Assembly (NCBI GenBank): GCA_900320285.1
Contig: ONRQ01000006.1
Span: 1 to 46,762, forward strand
Direction of reading: 5' to 3'
Length of the DNA stretch: 46,762 nt
Source of the DNA: an uncultured Eubacteriales bacterium
GTDB taxonomy: Bacteria; Bacillota; Clostridia; Peptostreptococcales; Anaerovoracaceae
The notes beneath the pieces were generated by a model, which worked only from the letters and a program-made list of their open reading frames with translations, was not told the origin of the DNA and searched no databases. The position numbers and the translations under genes are program-made. How positions within the stretch are numbered: the first letter of the stretch is position 1; every line of letters begins with the position of its first letter. Positions 5,723-41,987 of the stretch are shown in pieces.

Positions 5723-6601
5723 ATGGAATTCAACAAAAAGAAGGTCGAACGCATTCTGATGACGGTTGCCGGCAATTTGCTTTATGCCAGTGGTGTAAAC
5801 CTGATGATAAACCCTATACACCTATATAGCGGCGGGTTTACCGGAATCGCTCAGCTGATAAGGCTTTTCCTTACCGGATTTCTGCATATCCCGGAGATTC
5901 CCGGCCTGGATTACATGGGAATCATATATTTTGCCATAAACATTCCGCTGTTCTTCATGGCTTATAAAGTGATGGGACGCAAGTTCTGTATTACTACGCT
6001 CATATCTATAGCCATGGCTTCGGCTTTTCTGGCTATCATACCGGTGCCTGAGGTTCCTATAGTTGAAGACCGCATACTGGCTTCAGTAGTGGGAGGACTT
6101 GGCAGCGGTGTAGGAGCCGGACTGGTATTGAGAGCAGGCAGCTCACAGGGCGGCCAGGACGTCATAGGAGTATGCCTCGCGAAGACACACCCTAATTTCA
6201 AGGTGGGTACCATAGGCATAATTATCAGTGTCTGCATCTATACGATATGTCTGTTTATATATGACATACCGACGGTGCTGTATTCCATCATATTCGCAGT
6301 CGTTACGGGACTCGGTATTGACCGGGTACACGCGCAGAACATAAAGCAGGAATGCATGATCTTCACCAAAAAGCCGGGCCTTTCGGATGCCATACTGCAT
6401 GATCTCAACAGAGGTGTAACTGTATGGGACGGCGTGGGAGCCTACACCGGAGAGGACACCCAGGTGCTGGTGACTGTAATCAGCAAATACGAGGAGCCAC
6501 ATCTGAAAGAGATCATCGCAAAACATGATGAGAATGCCTTCATGATAATAAGCGACAACATCAGAGTGGTAGGACTCTTTCAAAAGAGATTCACGGAGTG
6601 A
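5723..6601 (+). CDS. YitT family membrane protein (DUF161/DUF2179)
   Basis: A 292-residue integral membrane protein with about five or six hydrophobic segments in the first 205 residues, including the family-typical GVNLMINPIHLYSGGFTGIA (25-44) and a Gly-rich GGLGSGVGAGLVLRAGSSQG stretch with GGQD after it. The soluble C-terminus (VLVTVISKYEEPHLKEII) is the DUF2179 domain. Its transport or sensing role is not established for the family. GGAAGG lies 7 bases before the ATG. It is the first gene of a run that continues into tmk. Confidence 0.85.
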   Translation: MEFNKKKVERILMTVAGNLLYASGVNLMINPIHLYSGGFTGIAQLIRLFLTGFLHIPEIPGLDYMGIIYFAINIPLFFMAYKVMGRKFCITTLISIAMASAFLAIIPVPEVPIVEDRILASVVGGLGSGVGAGLVLRAGSSQGGQDVIGVCLAKTHPNFKVGTIGIIISVCIYTICLFIYDIPTVLYSIIFAVVTGLGIDRVHAQNIKQECMIFTKKPGLSDAILHDLNRGVTVWDGVGAYTGEDTQVLVTVISKYEEPHLKEIIAKHDENAFMIISDNIRVVGLFQKRFTE

Positions 6602-34619: not shown

Positions 34620-34648
34620 TTGAAGAATACAATCGCTCATATTATAAT
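34620..34648 (+). promoter_or_regulatory. Promoter for the tRNA-Ala transcript
   Basis: TTGAAG (34620-34625) and consensus TATAAT (34643-34648) are exactly 17 bases apart. Start near 34655, giving a leader of about 113 bases before the tRNA. Confidence 0.65.
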
Positions 34649-34763
34649 AGTCTCCGTGATCATAACGGCTTTGCCGTAATGATGAGACTATTGATCTTCG
34701 TCGGCAGGCTCCTACGATAGAATAGTCTCCGTGATCATAACGGCTTTGCCGTAATAATATGAG
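34636..34763. repeat. Nested direct and inverted repeats upstream of tRNA-Ala
   Basis: A 35-bp sequence occurs twice, identical, at 34646-34680 and 34721-34755 (75-bp period). Each holds an ACGGC-TTT-GCCGT hairpin. AATAGTCTC of either copy can pair with GAGACTATT at 34684-34692, so the first copy forms a long hairpin (34646-34692) and the second offers a competing partner. The whole block is bracketed by a perfect 10-bp inverted repeat, 34636-34645 with 34754-34763. Confidence 0.85.
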
Positions 34764-34767
34764 TTGT

Positions 34768-34843
34768 GGGGCGTTAGCTCAGCTGGGAGAGCGCAAGGTT
34801 CGCAATCTTGAGGCCAGGGGTTCGATCCCCCTACGCTCCACCA
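34768..34843 (+). tRNA. tRNA-Ala (anticodon CGC)
   Basis: A 76-base cloverleaf including encoded CCA. The acceptor stem contains the G3-U70 wobble that identifies alanine tRNAs; the D arm is TAGCTCAGCTGGGAGAGC; the anticodon CGC is at 34801-34803, reading GCG; the T loop is GGTTCGATCC. It ends directly beside the integrase-carrying element, so its 3' end is the probable attachment site. Confidence 0.95.
34811..34843 (+). other. Probable attachment site (tRNA 3' end)
   Basis: The T arm and acceptor 3' strand lie immediately before a tyrosine integrase that reads towards the tRNA, the usual layout of tRNA-targeting elements. The tRNA is intact, as expected when the element restores its 3' end. 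I did not find the second copy in the window, so the site is inferred. Confidence 0.4.
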
Positions 34844-34930: not shown

Positions 34931-36280
34931 CTATGCCAGTGATTGTGCAATTTTTTCATAGCGTTCCTCATCTGTTGTGAGATCATAGCAATAACACTGC
35001 TGGGTAGTGCGCAGATCCTTGTGACCGAATTCCTTCTGTATGATGAGATCATCAACACCATTTACATGCAATACTGATGCGACAGTCTTACGTGTTTTAT
35101 GAAGGCTTCTTTGCGGTATTCCAAGTTCCTCGCAATAGTTATTGATCATCTTGCCTAAACCGGAATAAAAGCTTTCAAATCCTTCGTTCACGCAGAAGAT
35201 GAATCCATCTGTCGGCATGTCCAGCCGCTCTCTTTCTTCACGGACCTTTTCTATGATATCCAATGCGGCAGGGACGACACTCACGGTTCTCCAACCTTCA
35301 CCGTCTTTAAGACGTCCTTTCAGACACTTCATATCGTGACTATAGGAGTCATGCAGTATGATTTGCTTGCCGTTGATATCATCAAATCTGAGCGCAGTTA
35401 CTTCTCCGCGTCTCAGACCAACATACAACAGGAATGCTATTGCTAAAGGAATAAATATCTGCACTCTATCTCTTTTTTCTTCAAACTGCTTGAATGCATA
35501 CTGTATCAGAGCATCACGCTCATCAGGGAAGAAAACCTCTTGCTCACTTGGTTTTTTCACTTCAGGCTTCAGTACTCTGCTTTTCGGAATCTTGATTCGA
35601 TCAAAAGGGTTACTGCTGATGATTTCGATTTCCATGGCATATTCCAGCATCTGGCGCATGACCAGAGAGAAATTGTTATACTGATGGGCGTTCATTTCCT
35701 TTGAACGAACCTTTTTCAGTATCCATTCCTCTATGTCAGCCTTTGTAAGTGAGCATATAGGCTTTTTTGTGATAGCATCGCCCTCATACAAAGATTTCCA
35801 GGTTGTTTTATCCCTTTTGATAGTGGAATCTGTAACATATATGCTTTTATGCTGTTGCCACTCATCAAACAGCTCTTCCAGTGTAATCTGAAGTCTTTTT
35901 CTTTGCTTTTCGGCTTCTGTATAGAAGTCAAATAGCATAGATATCAATTCATCATGAGATCCTCTTGAAACAAGTTTTCTCCCGTTAGGCTTTTCTGCAT
36001 CAGGCAAGTATGTTCTCCAGCGTCCATCAGCTCCTTTCCAAATACTAAGTGAATGATTTTTCTGTACATAATCAAGTTTCTTTTTGCTCATAAGTTTATG
36101 CACGCCATCTTCATCAAGGATACCATCGTCAATAATTGATGACAATAATTCCTCGGCTGTAAATGGCGTGACAAAACTGAGCGTGTCGGTCGTGACAGCC
36201 GTGACAGTGTTAGCGGGAGTTGTCCTCCTTGCTGTCACAGCTGTCACAGATTTCAAAGGACAGTATCCTGCCATCAGCAT
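34931..36280 (-). CDS. Tyrosine recombinase/integrase
   Basis: 449 residues. N-terminal DNA-binding/AP2-like segment (SIWKGADGRWRTYLP near 79-93), a SAM-like core-binding domain (near 130-215), and the catalytic domain: Arg in LLYVGLRRGEVTAL, H-x-x-R in LHKTRKT, His420 in FGHKDLRTT, nucleophile Tyr430. It probably integrates the element at the tRNA-Ala. The start is uncertain: Met1 (36280) and Met3 (36274) both follow AGGA; the first 35 residues (VTAVTARR...TVTAVTT) are encoded by the repeat array at 36183-36247. Its 5' end overlaps the winged-helix gene by 71 bases. Confidence 0.9.
   Translation of the reverse strand: MLMAGYCPLKSVTAVTARRTTPANTVTAVTTDTLSFVTPFTAEELLSSIIDDGILDEDGVHKLMSKKKLDYVQKNHSLSIWKGADGRWRTYLPDAEKPNGRKLVSRGSHDELISMLFDFYTEAEKQRKRLQITLEELFDEWQQHKSIYVTDSTIKRDKTTWKSLYEGDAITKKPICSLTKADIEEWILKKVRSKEMNAHQYNNFSLVMRQMLEYAMEIEIISSNPFDRIKIPKSRVLKPEVKKPSEQEVFFPDERDALIQYAFKQFEEKRDRVQIFIPLAIAFLLYVGLRRGEVTALRFDDINGKQIILHDSYSHDMKCLKGRLKDGEGWRTVSVVPAALDIIEKVREERERLDMPTDGFIFCVNEGFESFYSGLGKMINNYCEELGIPQRSLHKTRKTVASVLHVNGVDDLIIQKEFGHKDLRTTQQCYCYDLTTDEERYEKIAQSLA
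36183..36247. repeat. Inverted array of 9-bp-period repeats at the integrase start
   Basis: Plus strand: two tandem copies GTGACAGCC GTGACAGTG from 36192 (a degenerate third copy at 36183), a 24-base spacer (36208-36231), then two tandem copies CTGTCACAG from 36232. The right half is the inverse of the left. The array covers the end of the small winged-helix gene and the beginning of the integrase gene. Confidence 0.85.
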
Positions 36281-36455
36281 GTGTCCTGCTGTAGCTGTAT
36301 GCTATCCCTTCATCCAGCAAGAGGCTACTCTTGTACTGGTTGACATATTTTGTGATGACATTGGTGCCGACCGACTGATCACCAAGTTCATTAAGCAATT
36401 CAGTAGCTGAACTCTTCCATATCCTGTGTCTTTGAGAGATAAAAATATACTGCAT
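36210..36455 (-). CDS. Small winged-helix-like protein, related to the RepA C-terminus
   Basis: 81 residues. AGGATAGG lies 7 bases before the ATG. The sequence WKSSATELLNELG ... GIAYSYSRTHADGRILSF follows the same pattern as the C-terminal domain of the RepA-like ATPase at 38563 (FTGTMSALLKEIG ... GITYSSARVSSERNYVF), a domain type common at the end of element-borne AAA proteins. It may be a DNA-binding regulator or excision factor (inference). It overlaps the integrase by 71 bases, so the two are likely translated together. Its last residues (CDSCDS) are encoded by the repeat array. Confidence 0.65.
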   Translation of the reverse strand: MQYIFISQRHRIWKSSATELLNELGDQSVGTNVITKYVNQYKSSLLLDEGIAYSYSRTHADGRILSFEICDSCDSKEDNSR

Positions 36456-36479
36456 GATTATACCTATCCTTTCTCATTC

Positions 36480-36506
36480 AAAAAAGGCCCCCCTTAGAAG
36501 GGAACC
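36480..36506 (-). terminator. Terminator after the relaxase gene
   Basis: On the minus strand a GGTTCCC/GGGGGCC stem (36486-36506, with G-U pairs) is followed by six T (36480-36485). It separates the mobilization genes from the winged-helix-integrase pair. Confidence 0.6.
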
Positions 36507-36522
36507 CCTGATAATAATGTTT

Positions 36523-37908
36523 TTAACGTTCTTCTCTGTCTCTGTGATCCTTTCGAATGGTCTTAATATGATCACCGCGGCAGTGTTCAAGTTCGGTTTT
36601 TATGTCATCACGGACCTGGGTACTACGTTCCAGTGTGAAATCAGCAGTCCGTATATCCTTGCGCAGTTTACTGATCTTTGCAGTTAATTCGCCTCTTTCA
36701 GCCTTCCATTGTTCTATCTGATCAGGTTCTGAAGTACGCCTCAATTTATTTCGTATCTTGTTTCTCGTTGCAGAAAGATCGTCCATTTTCCTTTCTGAAT
36801 CAGAAATGAAAGTCTTAACATCTGCATCCGTTCTGAGATGTTCCCGTGCCATAAGCCTGGCGCAGGCGGAGTATTTATCACACATACGCCCGGCTTCACG
36901 CATCTCAGGTGAAAGCGGCCTATGTTTTTTCTTCGGCCTGTAACCGAGAAGATACAGATAATGAAGATAAAGTCCGTATAAGCCTCCAATCTTTCGTGCA
37001 GTCTTCCTTGTCCCGTTGACATGGATACGCGAATGCTTCGGAGGCATCATGGTCATAAGATGCTTTTCACGGTTGACTGCTACGATCTCGTAATCATTTG
37101 CATTGACTCTCTGAACTATCCTGTCTAGTTCATAATCCTCACCAAGCCGGTAAAGCCTTACAGCCTTTTGAGAATTAACCGACCTGATAGTCGGATACTT
37201 TCTTGTATAACTGTAGCTGATGATATATCCCTGTTGCTTCATCAGATTGATGAAAGTGGGGAAATTGGTACTGAGTGAGATTGCTTTATCTATAGCTTCA
37301 CGCATCAGATTGTATCTTGTAGGCTCACCGTTTTTCTCTGCAAAGTGGATCTGTCTTGGAGTTTTCCCTCGCGGCTTTTCTATGACTGAAAGCCCATTCT
37401 CCCTGCATATCTCATCAGATAATCTGCGCAGTCTGCTGTATGCAGCCTTATTGTCATTGAATTTCTTCCCATCTATGAACGAGACAGAACAACATACAAG
37501 GTGGTTATGAAGATGATCACGATCCAGATGAGTCGCGACCAGCACCTGGTATCTGTCTCCCCACATCCTGTGTGCGAGTTCTACTCCAAGCTGATGACAT
37601 TGCTCAGGCGTTACTTCGCCCGGTTTGAATGACTGATAACAGTGATAGGCGACATTACCGCCGGTCTTCCCGAAGAGCTTTTGAGTATTGATCATTTCGT
37701 CAAGCGCTGTATCAGCGGAGCAATTAACACCTGTTACATAGCATGCTTTTTCAGATTCTCCTGTAGTATCAGCGACCGTTTTGTCTCCATTCATCGCGTA
37801 CCTGATGACTGAGGCCAGATCATCTTCTGATGTTTTTTCAGGATTGGATGCATAATCAACGACACGTTTAAGGCTGTCTCTGACAGGCCAGATCTTAGTC
37901 GTTGCCAT
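36523..37908 (-). CDS. Relaxase, MobP-type (Relaxase/Mob nuclease domain)
   Basis: 461 residues. The probable catalytic Tyr19 is in VVDYASNPEKT, and the metal-binding three-His motif is HLDRDHLHNH (127-136), the standard pfam03432 arrangement. It nicks at oriT and leads the strand into the recipient. The C-terminal 100 residues are a charged coiled region (KMDDLSATRNKIRNK onward). GGAGG lies 9 bases before the ATG; the start overlaps the MobC-like gene by 14 bases. Confidence 0.92.
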   Translation of the reverse strand: MATTKIWPVRDSLKRVVDYASNPEKTSEDDLASVIRYAMNGDKTVADTTGESEKACYVTGVNCSADTALDEMINTQKLFGKTGGNVAYHCYQSFKPGEVTPEQCHQLGVELAHRMWGDRYQVLVATHLDRDHLHNHLVCCSVSFIDGKKFNDNKAAYSRLRRLSDEICRENGLSVIEKPRGKTPRQIHFAEKNGEPTRYNLMREAIDKAISLSTNFPTFINLMKQQGYIISYSYTRKYPTIRSVNSQKAVRLYRLGEDYELDRIVQRVNANDYEIVAVNREKHLMTMMPPKHSRIHVNGTRKTARKIGGLYGLYLHYLYLLGYRPKKKHRPLSPEMREAGRMCDKYSACARLMAREHLRTDADVKTFISDSERKMDDLSATRNKIRNKLRRTSEPDQIEQWKAERGELTAKISKLRKDIRTADFTLERSTQVRDDIKTELEHCRGDHIKTIRKDHRDREER

Positions 37909-38248
37909 CTGCTTTTACCTCCGTCTTTGGGTAAATATGCCTCATAAGCTGCAGAGTCTCAACCATTATTCTGAGCAGATCTGCATAAATGTCATCACAG
38001 AATTTCTGCATTATTGGGTCAGAAGATCGTCTTTTCATGTCGCTTACGGCTCCGATCACTTCGTTGATTCTGAGAAAACTATCTTCGATTTTTTTCGCAG
38101 GAAGCTCTTTCGGTACGACCTTCATTGCTATCTGTCTGAGGTATTCTGAGACGCTCAGGCGACACTTTTTTGCATTGCGTTCTATCTTTTCCTTTTCTTC
38201 CGGGGTCACTCTGATGTTGATCCCGAGATTCCTCTGTCTGTTTGCCAT
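37895..38248 (-). CDS. MobC-like relaxosome accessory protein
   Basis: 117 residues. The N-terminal ribbon-helix-helix pattern (INIRVTPEEKEKIERNAKK, then SVSEYLRQIAM) is typical of MobC/plasmid mobilization proteins that help the relaxase at oriT. Start at 38248 (MANRQRN) after AAGGAAA; the frame is open to 38272. Coupled to the relaxase by overlap. Confidence 0.85.
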   Translation of the reverse strand: MANRQRNLGINIRVTPEEKEKIERNAKKCRLSVSEYLRQIAMKVVPKELPAKKIEDSFLRINEVIGAVSDMKRRSSDPIMQKFCDDIYADLLRIMVETLQLMRHIYPKTEVKADGND

Positions 38249-38527
38249 ATAATATTTCCTTTCCTTAGACAATTATTTTCATACATGATTCTTTTGTAAT
38301 AACTGATAGGGGTTGCAGGGGCAGAGCCCCTCCCGGTATTGCCACATGTGGCAGTGCCGCGGCTATTATCACGGGCGGAGTCTCCGGCTGGCGATACATA
38401 GCCTATGCTCGCTACTCTTATGGACAGACCTCCGGCTGCCCATAGTGGCAACACCCGTGGCGATACACGGATGTTGTTCTTTTAGAAAGCTGGCAATACA
38501 AGGTGGCAATACTTGCATGCTGCCTAT
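38249..38527. other. Non-coding region with palindromes, oriT candidate
   Basis: Between mobC and repA, with no supportable gene. It holds AGGGGC-AGA-GCCCCT (38317-38331), the 14-bp perfect palindrome TGCCACATGTGGCA (38340-38353), and an imperfect TATGGACAG/CTGCCCATA pair near 38419-38445. A GC-rich hairpin stretch just before a MobC-relaxase pair is where oriT is usually found; no nic site could be assigned. Confidence 0.4.
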
Positions 38528-38600
38528 ATGACGGCAATGACGCTAATGACGGCATCTCGCTCCTAGAGCAGAGAAGCGTCATAAGCGTCATGAGCGTCAT
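38528..38600. repeat. Inverted array of 9-bp-period iteron-like repeats at the repA 3' end
   Basis: Plus strand: three ATGACG(G/C) copies at 38528, 38537 and 38546; a 22-base spacer that can fold (TCTCGCTC against GAGC-GAGA); then three inverse copies AGCGTCAT at 38575, 38584 and 38593. Period 9 in both halves. The right half encodes the last residues of the RepA-like protein (DAHDAYDAS); the left half is non-coding. Confidence 0.88.
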
Positions 38601-39660
38601 CACTATAAGCAGAGTCCAATTTGACAGATGCGTCTGTTAAACTTTCTGAGCCAGTGCAGGAATCATCTGCGACCGTGAACACATAGTTGCGCTCGCTGGA
38701 TACGCGTGCACTGCTATAGGTGATCCCAAGTGGGAGCAGCACTTCATCATGGAACTTCGAGAGCGCCCGGCTGAGAGCATGCGGCTTGACATGAGGAAGT
38801 CCGATCTCTTTGAGCAGTGCTGACATGGTGCCTGTGAATCCTCCCTCAGCCATCAGGTAGTCGACCACCTTATATACGATTTCAGGGACATTCTCTCTTG
38901 CGATGTCTTCCTCTGACTTCTCTTCGATGACCTGCCACTCGGGATGCTGCCACTGCATCACAAGTTCAATATCTGGTGCATCACGTCCGCTTACACTGAG
39001 CGTGCCGTCAGTGCCTCCGCGGTTTTTCCGGAGAATGAGAATCATGTCTGCTGTTCCGGTTACTGCTGATGAACCAAGCACATCATTATTGCCATCTTTC
39101 GAATCGTGCTTCTTGCGTGTATGGTGGACAAACACAATCGCAATCCTGCGATAATCAGCGATCTCCTTGAGCCTTGCAAGTTCCTCATACTCGCAAGCAT
39201 ATTGATTGGCATTCGATGTTGGGTCACCGTGCCGGATCTTCTGCAGTGTGTCAACGATCACAAGTCTGACTCCCGGATTACTGTCCAGACACTTTTCCAG
39301 ATCACTGATGAAGTCTCCGGATGGATCCAGCAGTGATGTGGCATATATCATTTCTTTCGGTGGAACAGTACCAATATCCAGTATCCTGCATTTGAGCCTT
39401 GCATCTGTGTCTTCAAGTGCGTAGTATGCAACACCGCACTGTTTGACATCATGACCGAGGAACGGCTCACCCAGGCTGACAGATAATGCCAGCCTCAGCA
39501 TCAGCCAGCTTTTACACGACTTTGGAGCACCTGCTATTATGGTCAGTCCTGTTGGGATGAGACCATCGACTATCATGTCAGGCTTGCAGCCGCCGACAGG
39601 ATTATAGAAGAGTTCTTCTGCGCTTTTGAAATTAGTGGTAATTTGTTTGTTTTCAGGCAT
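38563..39660 (-). CDS. RepA-like AAA/RecA-fold ATPase
   Basis: 365 residues. Walker A is GAPKSCKS (44-51), Walker B RLVIVDTLQ (about 132-140), with VFVHHTRK and SSAVTGTADM as in hexameric RepA helicases (AAA_25 type). From about 270 a winged-helix-like domain follows (GGFTGTMSALLKEIGLP; GITYSSARVSSERNYVF). It would unwind the element origin during replication after transfer or excision. AAAGGAGG is 4-5 bases before the ATG. The 3' end carries the iteron-like array. Confidence 0.85.
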   Translation of the reverse strand: MPENKQITTNFKSAEELFYNPVGGCKPDMIVDGLIPTGLTIIAGAPKSCKSWLMLRLALSVSLGEPFLGHDVKQCGVAYYALEDTDARLKCRILDIGTVPPKEMIYATSLLDPSGDFISDLEKCLDSNPGVRLVIVDTLQKIRHGDPTSNANQYACEYEELARLKEIADYRRIAIVFVHHTRKKHDSKDGNNDVLGSSAVTGTADMILILRKNRGGTDGTLSVSGRDAPDIELVMQWQHPEWQVIEEKSEEDIARENVPEIVYKVVDYLMAEGGFTGTMSALLKEIGLPHVKPHALSRALSKFHDEVLLPLGITYSSARVSSERNYVFTVADDSCTGSESLTDASVKLDSAYSDDAHDAYDASLL

Positions 39661-39679: not shown

Positions 39680-39859
39680 TCATTGCCGTTTCTTCTTGCT
39701 TCGTTTGGAATTGTATTCAGGGCATTGTATTATCACTACTCTGAAGCTTTGCTTACAGTCGCGGTCACATTTACGGCACAGCTCGTTATATGTGATGCGC
39801 CCGCGATCATTCAGGAAGTAGTTCCATTCTTCCTTGTCGCGCTTTGACATTCTTGGCAT
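39680..39859 (-). CDS. Small Cys-containing protein of mobile elements
   Basis: 59 residues: MPRMSKRDKEEWNYFLND, then CRKCDRDC and a later Cys, and a Lys/Arg tail (SKRSKKKRQ). The C-x2-C-x3-C spacing suggests a small metal-binding or DNA-contacting protein. ATG 39859 has GGAGGTG 6 bases upstream; a GTG 9 bases earlier overlaps that site. It precedes repA by 19 bases. Proteins of this look are common beside RepA-like genes in clostridial elements, function unknown. Confidence 0.65.
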   Translation of the reverse strand: MPRMSKRDKEEWNYFLNDRGRITYNELCRKCDRDCKQSFRVVIIQCPEYNSKRSKKKRQ

Positions 39860-39919
39860 TGGTATCACCTCCGATCTTCATTGAGATAATTGATATTTAG
39901 TAATAACGTGCAAAACAAT

Positions 39920-40278: not shown

Positions 40279-41094
40279 ATGGCAGGATTATCTCGCGAAG
40301 CATGGTATGAAGAATACATGCTCATGATGGATGAAGAATATGGTGACTATGGATTCAAGGATGATCCGATAATTCTTGAAGAGATTGCGCTGGAGGAAGA
40401 AGAGGAAAGTGAGCCTGTAAAAAAGTACGTTATAGTCAGCGATGATGACGAGGAATGCAACGTACCCGCTGAAGTCGTTAGACTGAAGGACATACAGGTG
40501 CCGAAAGGTGTAAAGAAACTCAAACGTGACATCAGGCATGAGATGCTCAGAAGGATCGAACAGTCTGCACGAACAGTAACTGACTTCAAGCGCCTTAATG
40601 ACTGGTATGATTTTCTAGAAGAGAATGAAAAATCCAGGGTCAGGAAGCATGAGATCCTTAGGAATGGCGATGATTTCCCTCTTGAGTATGGCGAAGATGA
40701 GGACAGTTCATTCACTGCAGGTTGCTTGAGCAATGTTATAACCAGGCAGATGCGTAAAGGAGACATACTGGACTTTCTGTACTGCAAGCCGGATACTATA
40801 GATCAACTTGTGACAAAAGACTATATGATACATTTCATGCGAGCTTTGGATATGGATGATAGGGAACTATTCTATTACAAAGTCCTGGAGAAATATTCAA
40901 ATGCCGAGATCGCAGAGATGCGGGGTCAGACAGACAGAGCGGTAAGGAAGGCGTGGGATAAACTGGAGTTTCATCTGAAGCAGCGGACTATGGGCCTCCT
41001 GATTTTTAGAAGCGATAAGGATTACTCTTTTACAGGTGATGAGCAGAGATTCTTTGATACCTGCCGGGAACAGTATGAATACAGAGGTGCATAA
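40279..41094 (+). CDS. Sigma-70 region-4-like helix-turn-helix protein
   Basis: 271 residues. The first 60 are very acidic (EEIALEEEEESEP). The last third contains DMDDRELFYYKVLEKYSNAE, then IAEMRGQTDRAVRKAWDKLE, which reads as a region-4-type HTH (about residues 198-235) with the YSNAEIA turn seen in sigma-like proteins. Region 2 was not recognised, so it may be a transcription regulator rather than a complete sigma factor. AGAGGA precedes the ATG. Its stop overlaps the next start (TAATG). Confidence 0.6.
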   Translation: MAGLSREAWYEEYMLMMDEEYGDYGFKDDPIILEEIALEEEEESEPVKKYVIVSDDDEECNVPAEVVRLKDIQVPKGVKKLKRDIRHEMLRRIEQSARTVTDFKRLNDWYDFLEENEKSRVRKHEILRNGDDFPLEYGEDEDSSFTAGCLSNVITRQMRKGDILDFLYCKPDTIDQLVTKDYMIHFMRALDMDDRELFYYKVLEKYSNAEIAEMRGQTDRAVRKAWDKLEFHLKQRTMGLLIFRSDKDYSFTGDEQRFFDTCREQYEYRGA

Positions 41095-41987
41095 TGAAAA
41101 GACTCTTTAAATACGCAAATTCATTCTGGGTCAAGTATAGTGACTATGTAATTAATGAGACTGCAGATGGCAAGAAATATCTTCAGCCTGCGCCAAAAGC
41201 CATGCCTCAGCCATACGATCCAATTGATAAATTTGAAAGCATTGCTTTGGATGCGGTTAATGTTGGCCGCCTTTGTATGAATCTGGAAGCAACAGAAAGT
41301 GAGAAACATGATGCGATACGAGAATTTACATTGAAGTATGGTCTGCTGGGCATTATGACAGCTCTGCCGACAACTCCAAGATTTCTCCAGTATGAGAACG
41401 CTTTTTTCCCTGTAAATCATTTTATACGGGAGGAGTCTATGCCGGTGCTGCCATATATGGACGAATTTTATCCTTTCGGGAAGCTGGACATCCATAAAAG
41501 GGGCCCTGGTGAAGGCTACCGTTGGGATCTTGAGGGAGATAAGGAGACTGTGCTGCTTGGAACTCTGACTGATGGGCGACCTCTTGAAACACACATGACG
41601 TTTCAGCGCGAATATGCAGAGAGATTGGATTGGATGGAAGAGCAGTTTAAGGACTGGGCGTTCAATCTCATGGTCATATTCTTCTATTACGAAGATAAGG
41701 ACGGATTTACGGAAAAACAGAAGGAATTCCATAAGCAAAGTATGGCAGCGTTTGATGGACTGACTCCGACATACCATATCGGGCTTATGGATGACAGACC
41801 GTATCTTGTTTGGAACTTCAATTCATTGCTTCAAGGAATACAGCTTATGTTCAGCATGATGCTGACTGATGAAAACAGGCCTATCAGAATGTGTAAGAAT
41901 TGTGGTAAAGCATTTATAGCCAGACGCCACAGAGATAAATTCTGCAGCAAGGAATGCTCTGAAGAGTGGAAGAGAAACACCGACTAA
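41094..41987 (+). CDS. Zinc-finger-tailed protein, DUF6076-like
   Basis: 297 residues. A long N-terminal domain of unknown fold (KYGLLGIMTALPTTPRF near 84-100; WDLEGDKETVLLGTL) ends in a Cys-rich finger CKNCGKAFIARRHRDKFC-x3-C (about 268-289), the CGNR/treble-clef-like pattern found at the end of DUF6076-type proteins. Translationally coupled to the sigma-like gene by a one-base overlap, so the pair is one functional unit. Function unknown. Confidence 0.6.
   Translation: MKRLFKYANSFWVKYSDYVINETADGKKYLQPAPKAMPQPYDPIDKFESIALDAVNVGRLCMNLEATESEKHDAIREFTLKYGLLGIMTALPTTPRFLQYENAFFPVNHFIREESMPVLPYMDEFYPFGKLDIHKRGPGEGYRWDLEGDKETVLLGTLTDGRPLETHMTFQREYAERLDWMEEQFKDWAFNLMVIFFYYEDKDGFTEKQKEFHKQSMAAFDGLTPTYHIGLMDDRPYLVWNFNSLLQGIQLMFSMMLTDENRPIRMCKNCGKAFIARRHRDKFCSKECSEEWKRNTD

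Follow-up and report, generated by a model that had tools for sequence, protein, structure and literature searches.

We analyzed two arrays of short inverted repeats in a 46,762-nucleotide stretch of DNA from an uncultured Eubacteriales bacterium (GenBank contig ONRQ01000006.1; we call this whole stretch the window). These arrays are a conserved feature of a family of RepA-like ring helicases, which combine an AAA_25 domain with a C-terminal winged helix. We think it likely that the arrays are landing sites for initiator helicases that recruit themselves: array 1, at the end of the helicase gene repA1, would be the probable origin of a mobile element, and array 2 would be the landing site of another helicase, RepA2, of which a free winged-helix protein of 81 residues is the remnant.

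Paired TGAC arrays and the RepA family

Both arrays are convergent, with a period of 9 bp and a common core of RTGAC. Array 1 comprises RTGACG sites, three facing three: TGAC at 38529, 38538, and 38547 faces GTCA at 38578, 38587, and 38596, and the inner cores are 27 bases apart. Array 2 comprises GTGACAG sites, two facing two (TGAC at 36193 and 36202, GTCA at 36234 and 36243), and a degenerate additional copy, GTGTCGG, at 36183; in the related loci L214, L230, and L215, array 2 has one unit more than in the window or in L213. We scanned the window for any 6-mer that is repeated at 9 bp and that faces its complement, also repeated at 9 bp, at most 60 bases away. These two arrays were the only matches, and 60 first-order Markov simulations gave 0 matches; the arrays do not arise by chance. 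The scan confirms an earlier reading of the window, made from the sequence alone, which had described two inverted arrays with this period and the same relative orientation. That sequence-only reading also had the positions of array 1 right, but the gap between the inner heptamers is 23 bases rather than 22. As it claimed, array 2 overlaps the 3' end of the gene for the 81-residue protein; the array also overlaps the 5' end of the integrase frame. The cores, which it considered to be different, are both RTGAC, and just the flanking bases differ.

RepA relatives are present in 48 of the 296 genomes of the bacterial family. Our census of homologues had 58 rows; two of these were parts of a single gene in genome G048, and dropping one of them left 57 loci. 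Among the loci named here, three pairs of labels stand for the same place: L214 and L279, L213 and L281, and L011 and L272. Under a strict definition that limits the spacer to 60 bp, 24 of the 57 loci have a TGAC array; if wider spacers were allowed, paired TGAC/GTCA half-arrays were found at 33 loci. TGAC ranked first among all non-palindromic tetramers, and its rivals were mainly overlapping registers of the same arrays. Twenty of the 33 paired arrays are strictly three facing three. If a step of 8 to 10 bp or one mismatch is tolerated, then 28 have exactly this number, and the remainder are 4+3 or 5+3. At six loci (L011, L021, L022, L023, L194, and L199), three exact copies of TGAC face three exact copies of GTCA across 264 to 603 bp. 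The sequence-only reading had proposed a module of a winged-helix domain plus its own repeat array, of the iteron and Rep kind; such a module does recur, and homologues have the array. Separately, the spacers of 68 distinct arrays cluster near 20-21, 29-30, and 38 bases, which are steps of about one period (uncorrected for the kinship of the loci).

AAA_25 was found in 40 of 40 members of the RepA family. The core of RepA matches RSF1010 RepA by profile and the RadA, DnaB, and RepA folds by structure matches from VIA: it is a RecA-type core with conserved nucleotide-binding residues, rather than an MCM-like AAA+ core. The arrays adjoin the helicase gene, and the C-terminal winged helix is a predicted fold. 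Because the winged-helix profile was built from the 33 array-positive loci, its score of 33 of 33 at those loci is circular. The domain was also detected (at 1e-5 or less) at 16 of the 24 array-negative loci, and several of the 8 loci without it have partial genes. More distant members of the family have cores of the types CGAC, CCGTT, and TACGA (judged by eye). The core does vary, as the sequence-only reading had anticipated, but the variation could not be tied to recognition residues: no rule held across the core variants, and the cases are too few. Among the few records examined, there was no convincing plasmid with this RepA as its sole replication gene, and no relatives of the window's RepA were confirmed in viral contigs.

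We also scanned for the DNA pattern without any protein query. This gave at least 118 stretches in genomes and 9 in viral contigs, with 131 arrays in total; the genome counts are a sample that includes close relatives. Seventy of the 131 arrays listed had a profile-detected RepA no more than 3 kb away, and 65 of these 70 were centred 150 bp or less from the 3' end of RepA. Among the matches listed, 68 of 81 genome arrays with a purine before TGAC had RepA within 3 kb, and another was at a locus with the RepA winged helix only (69 of 81), versus 1 of 41 arrays with pyrimidines or a mixture. The pyrimidine or mixed arrays look like a different thing, and many of them are TTGAC arrays in Bacteroidales and Verrucomicrobia. 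Across 299 genomes of the phylum, the array pattern occurred in 4 (including the window's own), and a control core occurred in 0. Two of the three other matches lie beside a RepA with a winged helix, and the third lies beside a protein that fits the RepA profile (7e-13), with no winged helix detected. In viral contigs, a control core of the same composition gave 3 stretches. We rejected the idea of a universal array orientation, which fails outside the RepA family: viral contigs had 18 stretches in the opposite orientation versus 9 in the same orientation.

The mobile element and the 81-residue protein

The host of array 1 is best read as a putative integrative mobilizable element, with an integrase gene, mobA, mobC, and a tRNA neighbour. 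The features are as follows (ORF, open reading frame):

34768..34843, + strand: tRNA-Ala, which adjoins int and is the likely attachment gene
34931..36280, - strand: int, a tyrosine integrase whose reading frame begins across array 2
36183..36248: array 2, overlapping both the 3' end of the 81-residue ORF and the start of the int frame
36210..36455, - strand: free winged-helix protein of 81 residues, a C-terminal remnant of RepA2 by sequence match and predicted fold
36523..37908, - strand: mobA, a MobA/VirD2-like relaxase (PF03432)
37895..38254, - strand: mobC, a NikA-like mobilization protein
38390..38417, - strand: oriT-like motif GTAGCGAGCATAGGCNATGTATYGCC between repA and mobC, a putative oriT
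38528..38600: array 1, across the final codons and the stop of repA1
38563..39660, - strand: repA1, an AAA_25/DnaB-type helicase that resembles RSF1010 RepA and has a winged helix in its C-terminal part
38671..38883, - strand: winged-helix domain of RepA1 (residues 260-330), predicted from secondary structure and profile
39680..39868, - strand: small ORF of 62 residues, found in RepA1 elements and in most of the RepA2 elements examined

A second copy of the 3' end of the tRNA-Ala was not found in the host genome assembly, and no second attachment site was seen up to the end of the contig.

The products of repA1 and of the 81-residue ORF end in similar domains, as the sequence-only reading had noticed: their similarity is weak (24-28% identity), and the same kind of fold is predicted for both. 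However, the two are not copies of a duplicated module of domain plus array, as it had proposed. By its sequence, the 81-residue protein is instead what is left of a second full-length RepA (RepA2): only the winged-helix end remains next to mobA, and it is still linked to an integrase and to the array of RepA2. It is 64-89% identical to the C-terminal 65-79 residues or so of full-length or nearly full-length RepA2 proteins, including one from the same genome as the window, and it matches residues 261-339 of a RepA2 of 339 residues. DNA identity with RepA2 loci begins abruptly at 36419-36426. At the seven RepA2 loci that we examined, RepA2 is directly before the integrase, with an array across the junction. 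In L210 and L211, which are RepA1 elements, the gene next to mobA is a different integrase (interrupted in L210), and no ORF of the 81-residue type separates the two. Because RepA2 precedes the integrase at the seven loci and L210 and L211 lack such an ORF, the element in the window is a hybrid. The arrays of RepA1 and RepA2 differ mainly in the base before the core and the base two places after it (4 and 7 closely related loci, respectively).

The junction of mobA with the 81-residue ORF recurs in L213, L214, L230, and L215, which represent three genomes; L230 has an interrupted mobA. The integrase of L213 is that of the window, and the integrases of the other three loci are 41% identical to it; DNA identity with these three ends at 36181, which is the outer edge of array 2. 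In L279, a longer stretch of the same place as L214, the block with both arrays, from array 2 to the end of repA1, is 92% identical. In four comparisons, the 81-residue ORF had 2/0, 7/0, 7/0, and 5/2 synonymous/nonsynonymous changes, with 8 synonymous and 2 nonsynonymous distinct sites. If three-quarters of changes were nonsynonymous, the probability of this would be about 4 in 10,000, from few changes. In mobA, there were 76 synonymous and 53 nonsynonymous changes between the window and L214.

Two other observations concern the surroundings. Just upstream of the tRNA-Ala, 34646-34680 and 34721-34755 form an exact 35-bp direct repeat with a short inverted repeat inside. A sigma-factor-like gene and a gene with a zinc motif, at 40279-41987, likewise accompany RepA1 in L210 and L211.

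Alternative roles for the arrays and for the 81-residue protein

The arrays might be by-products of conserved protein tails, which the sequence-only reading had recognized as a possible explanation. We rejected this because many arrays start at the stop codon of repA, and at L006-L009 the array is 5' of repA, so the arrays lie outside the gene. All in-gene arrays, at 24 of 24 positions in 22 loci, are read in one frame, so no argument can be drawn from variation in frame. It is also very improbable that the arrays are RNA or cruciform hairpins, such as terminators. Predicted folding is strong (about -39 kcal/mol for array 1), but in 68 arrays, the similarity of units paired in the hairpin register (0.562) does not exceed that of units out of register (0.622). 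The lack of added complementarity argues against hairpins, as do half-arrays that are up to 603 bp apart in relatives. Instead, similarity among the units of a single array (about 0.61) is higher than similarity to units of other arrays (0.45), as expected if a locus-specific protein binds them or if units were copied recently. Nor is a tie to oriT the main driver of the arrays. Close copies of the oriT-like motif occur at 13 of the 57 loci, all 13 of which have DNA similarity in the mob region, and the motif at 38390-38417 is probably an oriT. However, the motif stays on the mobC side of repA wherever the array sits, and it was not found in the seven array-bearing RepA2-int loci.

Another explanation is that the arrays are operators rather than origins, at which RepA winged helices repress or time the transcription of repA, mob, and int. 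Array 2 covers the RepA2/int junction, and the free 81-residue protein persists together with it. Besides the half-array at the end of repA, L276 has a second half-array (three copies of GTCA) just before the ribosome-binding site of mobC, which suggests operator use, and at L011/L272, this place is taken by the far half of the array proper. We consider this explanation unlikely, as the usual site of the array is the 3' end of repA, often past the stop, with no evident promoter, and an operator-binding domain would be an unusual partner for a helicase core. The two roles may also be combined: on plasmid F, RepE binds both the iterons and its own operator.

The 81-residue protein could be a domesticated recombination directionality factor, or a regulator of the integrase, that uses array 2. 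It is a small predicted winged-helix protein beside int, the distribution of changes (8 synonymous versus 2 nonsynonymous sites) hints at purifying selection, and similar spacings are described in PMC11963761: about one RdfS molecule per 10 bp, and BldC on 9-bp direct repeats. Still, this role is possible but doubtful. In L210 and L211, which have RepA1 and other integrases, this kind of ORF is missing between mobA and int (a weak match of 90 residues in L211, with 28% identity, is located elsewhere), and array 2 is one unit short in the window and in L213. Alternatively, the ORF and array 2 might be passive debris of module exchange, which we consider plausible although somewhat less than even in likelihood. 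DNA identity with several relatives stops at the outer edge of array 2, so junctions coincide with it; array 2 is degraded (2+2); and L241 has a shorter remnant, of 59 residues, next to an array of the RepA2 type. Against this, nearly all changes in the ORF are synonymous, unlike those in mobA, and a winged helix is still predicted for the N-terminally truncated protein. This free domain may serve as a regulator of int or as a competitor of RepA2, or it may be on the way to being lost.

Proposed self-recruiting helicases and known systems

If the arrays are landing sites of self-recruiting helicases, as we think likely, then RepA1 would be a RecA-fold ring helicase, similar to RSF1010 RepA and DnaB and presumably hexameric. 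The C-terminal winged helix of each subunit would bind one RTGAC site, with three winged helices arranged head to tail at 9-bp spacing on each half-array, and the six sites might serve one ring, or two rings across both halves. The ring would thereby be loaded beside the start of replication of the excised element. Array 2 would be the equivalent site for RepA2, which in the window's element was reduced to its winged helix and joined to the repA1-mobC-mobA block. The free winged helix, apparently kept under constraint, probably still binds array 2 as well as other RepA2 arrays in the same cell; one RepA2 element (G000:C28) is present in the host genome.

The logic of this mechanism comes from SaPI Rep and SCCmec Cch2, whose C-terminal domains bind iterons beside their own genes. 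According to PMC7581432, SaPI Rep is an initiator helicase, and the short iterons that its C-terminal domain recognizes follow immediately after its own gene. Our system shares the helicase with a C-terminal DNA-binding domain (predicted here) and the iterons beside the gene, but it differs in its RecA-fold core, its RTGAC sites (3+3 at 9 bp), and its mobilizable elements. For SCCmec, the isolated C-terminal domain of Cch2 is reported to bind the repeats, and a putative origin lies between cch2 and ccrC. The order of helicase, iterons, and recombinase gene is alike. Cch and SaPI Rep are MCM-like helicases, and Cch2 belongs to another class than the RecA-type RepA1. The VIA matches listed with the model of RepA included neither SaPI Rep nor Cch, but that list is dominated by the RecA domain and is uninformative on this point. 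The sequence-only reading knew of no named system with this arrangement; helicase, iterons, and (in SCCmec) recombinase have in fact been described together, although with a different class of helicase. We found no description of these arrays in openly licensed PubMed Central papers, which does not prove that there is none.

Three other systems share parts of the arrangement. RSF1010 RepA (1g8y, 1nlf, 1olo) has the same RecA-type hexameric helicase core; to our knowledge, it lacks a winged-helix tail of this kind, and the iterons of RSF1010 are bound by another protein, RepC. The C-terminal winged helix of mini-F RepE is the closest predicted fold to the 81-residue protein among the VIA matches listed, with no detectable sequence similarity. 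The core TGTGACA occurs at the oriS iterons and the operator of mini-F, but the four sites before repE on plasmid F are spaced by 21-33 bp rather than 9, and RepE is not a helicase. Winged-helix directionality factors such as RdfS and Cox are likewise small proteins beside a tyrosine integrase, but here the predicted winged helix derives from the tail of a helicase.

Arrays of related kinds occur elsewhere. At L032, L048, L053, L061, L084, L102, L130, and other loci, there are TTGACC-type 3+3 arrays with a 9-bp period and without this RepA. They are found in Bacteroidales (Paludibacteraceae) and some Verrucomicrobia, sometimes two or three per genome, and are apparently a separate, dispersed type of repeat. 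L159-L166 and L170, which are viral contigs, have the opposite orientation (three copies of GTCA and then three of TGAC), and some of them encode VTSVTSVT-like tails; several of the opposite-orientation viral arrays are at the 3' ends of ORFs that resemble phage replication proteins (by eye). The viral contigs L150 and L158 have TGAC arrays at the 3' end of an ORF of 810 residues. The L150 protein matches PHROG families of DNA helicases and DNA primases, and L158 has the same length and tail; judging from these matches, this is another class of helicase with the same kind of array. Finally, on the circular Caldicellulosiruptor plasmid pATHE01 (L244), positions 6381-6560 contain six 9-bp copies of AGAGTGAAT and three facing copies of TTCACTC, within the 3' part of an AAA ATPase gene.

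More tentatively, these arrays may constitute an undescribed and widespread class of origin, with six RTGAC sites, one per RepA subunit, and no separate initiator, along with a freed winged helix that competes for, or hijacks, the arrays of a rival RepA2. A signature in the sequence that pairs a likely origin with its helicase would open many gut and rumen Clostridia to direct tests. The strict number of three facing three suggests a loading geometry of one site per subunit for a RecA-type ring helicase, and the free winged helix could play a part in competition among resident mobile elements.
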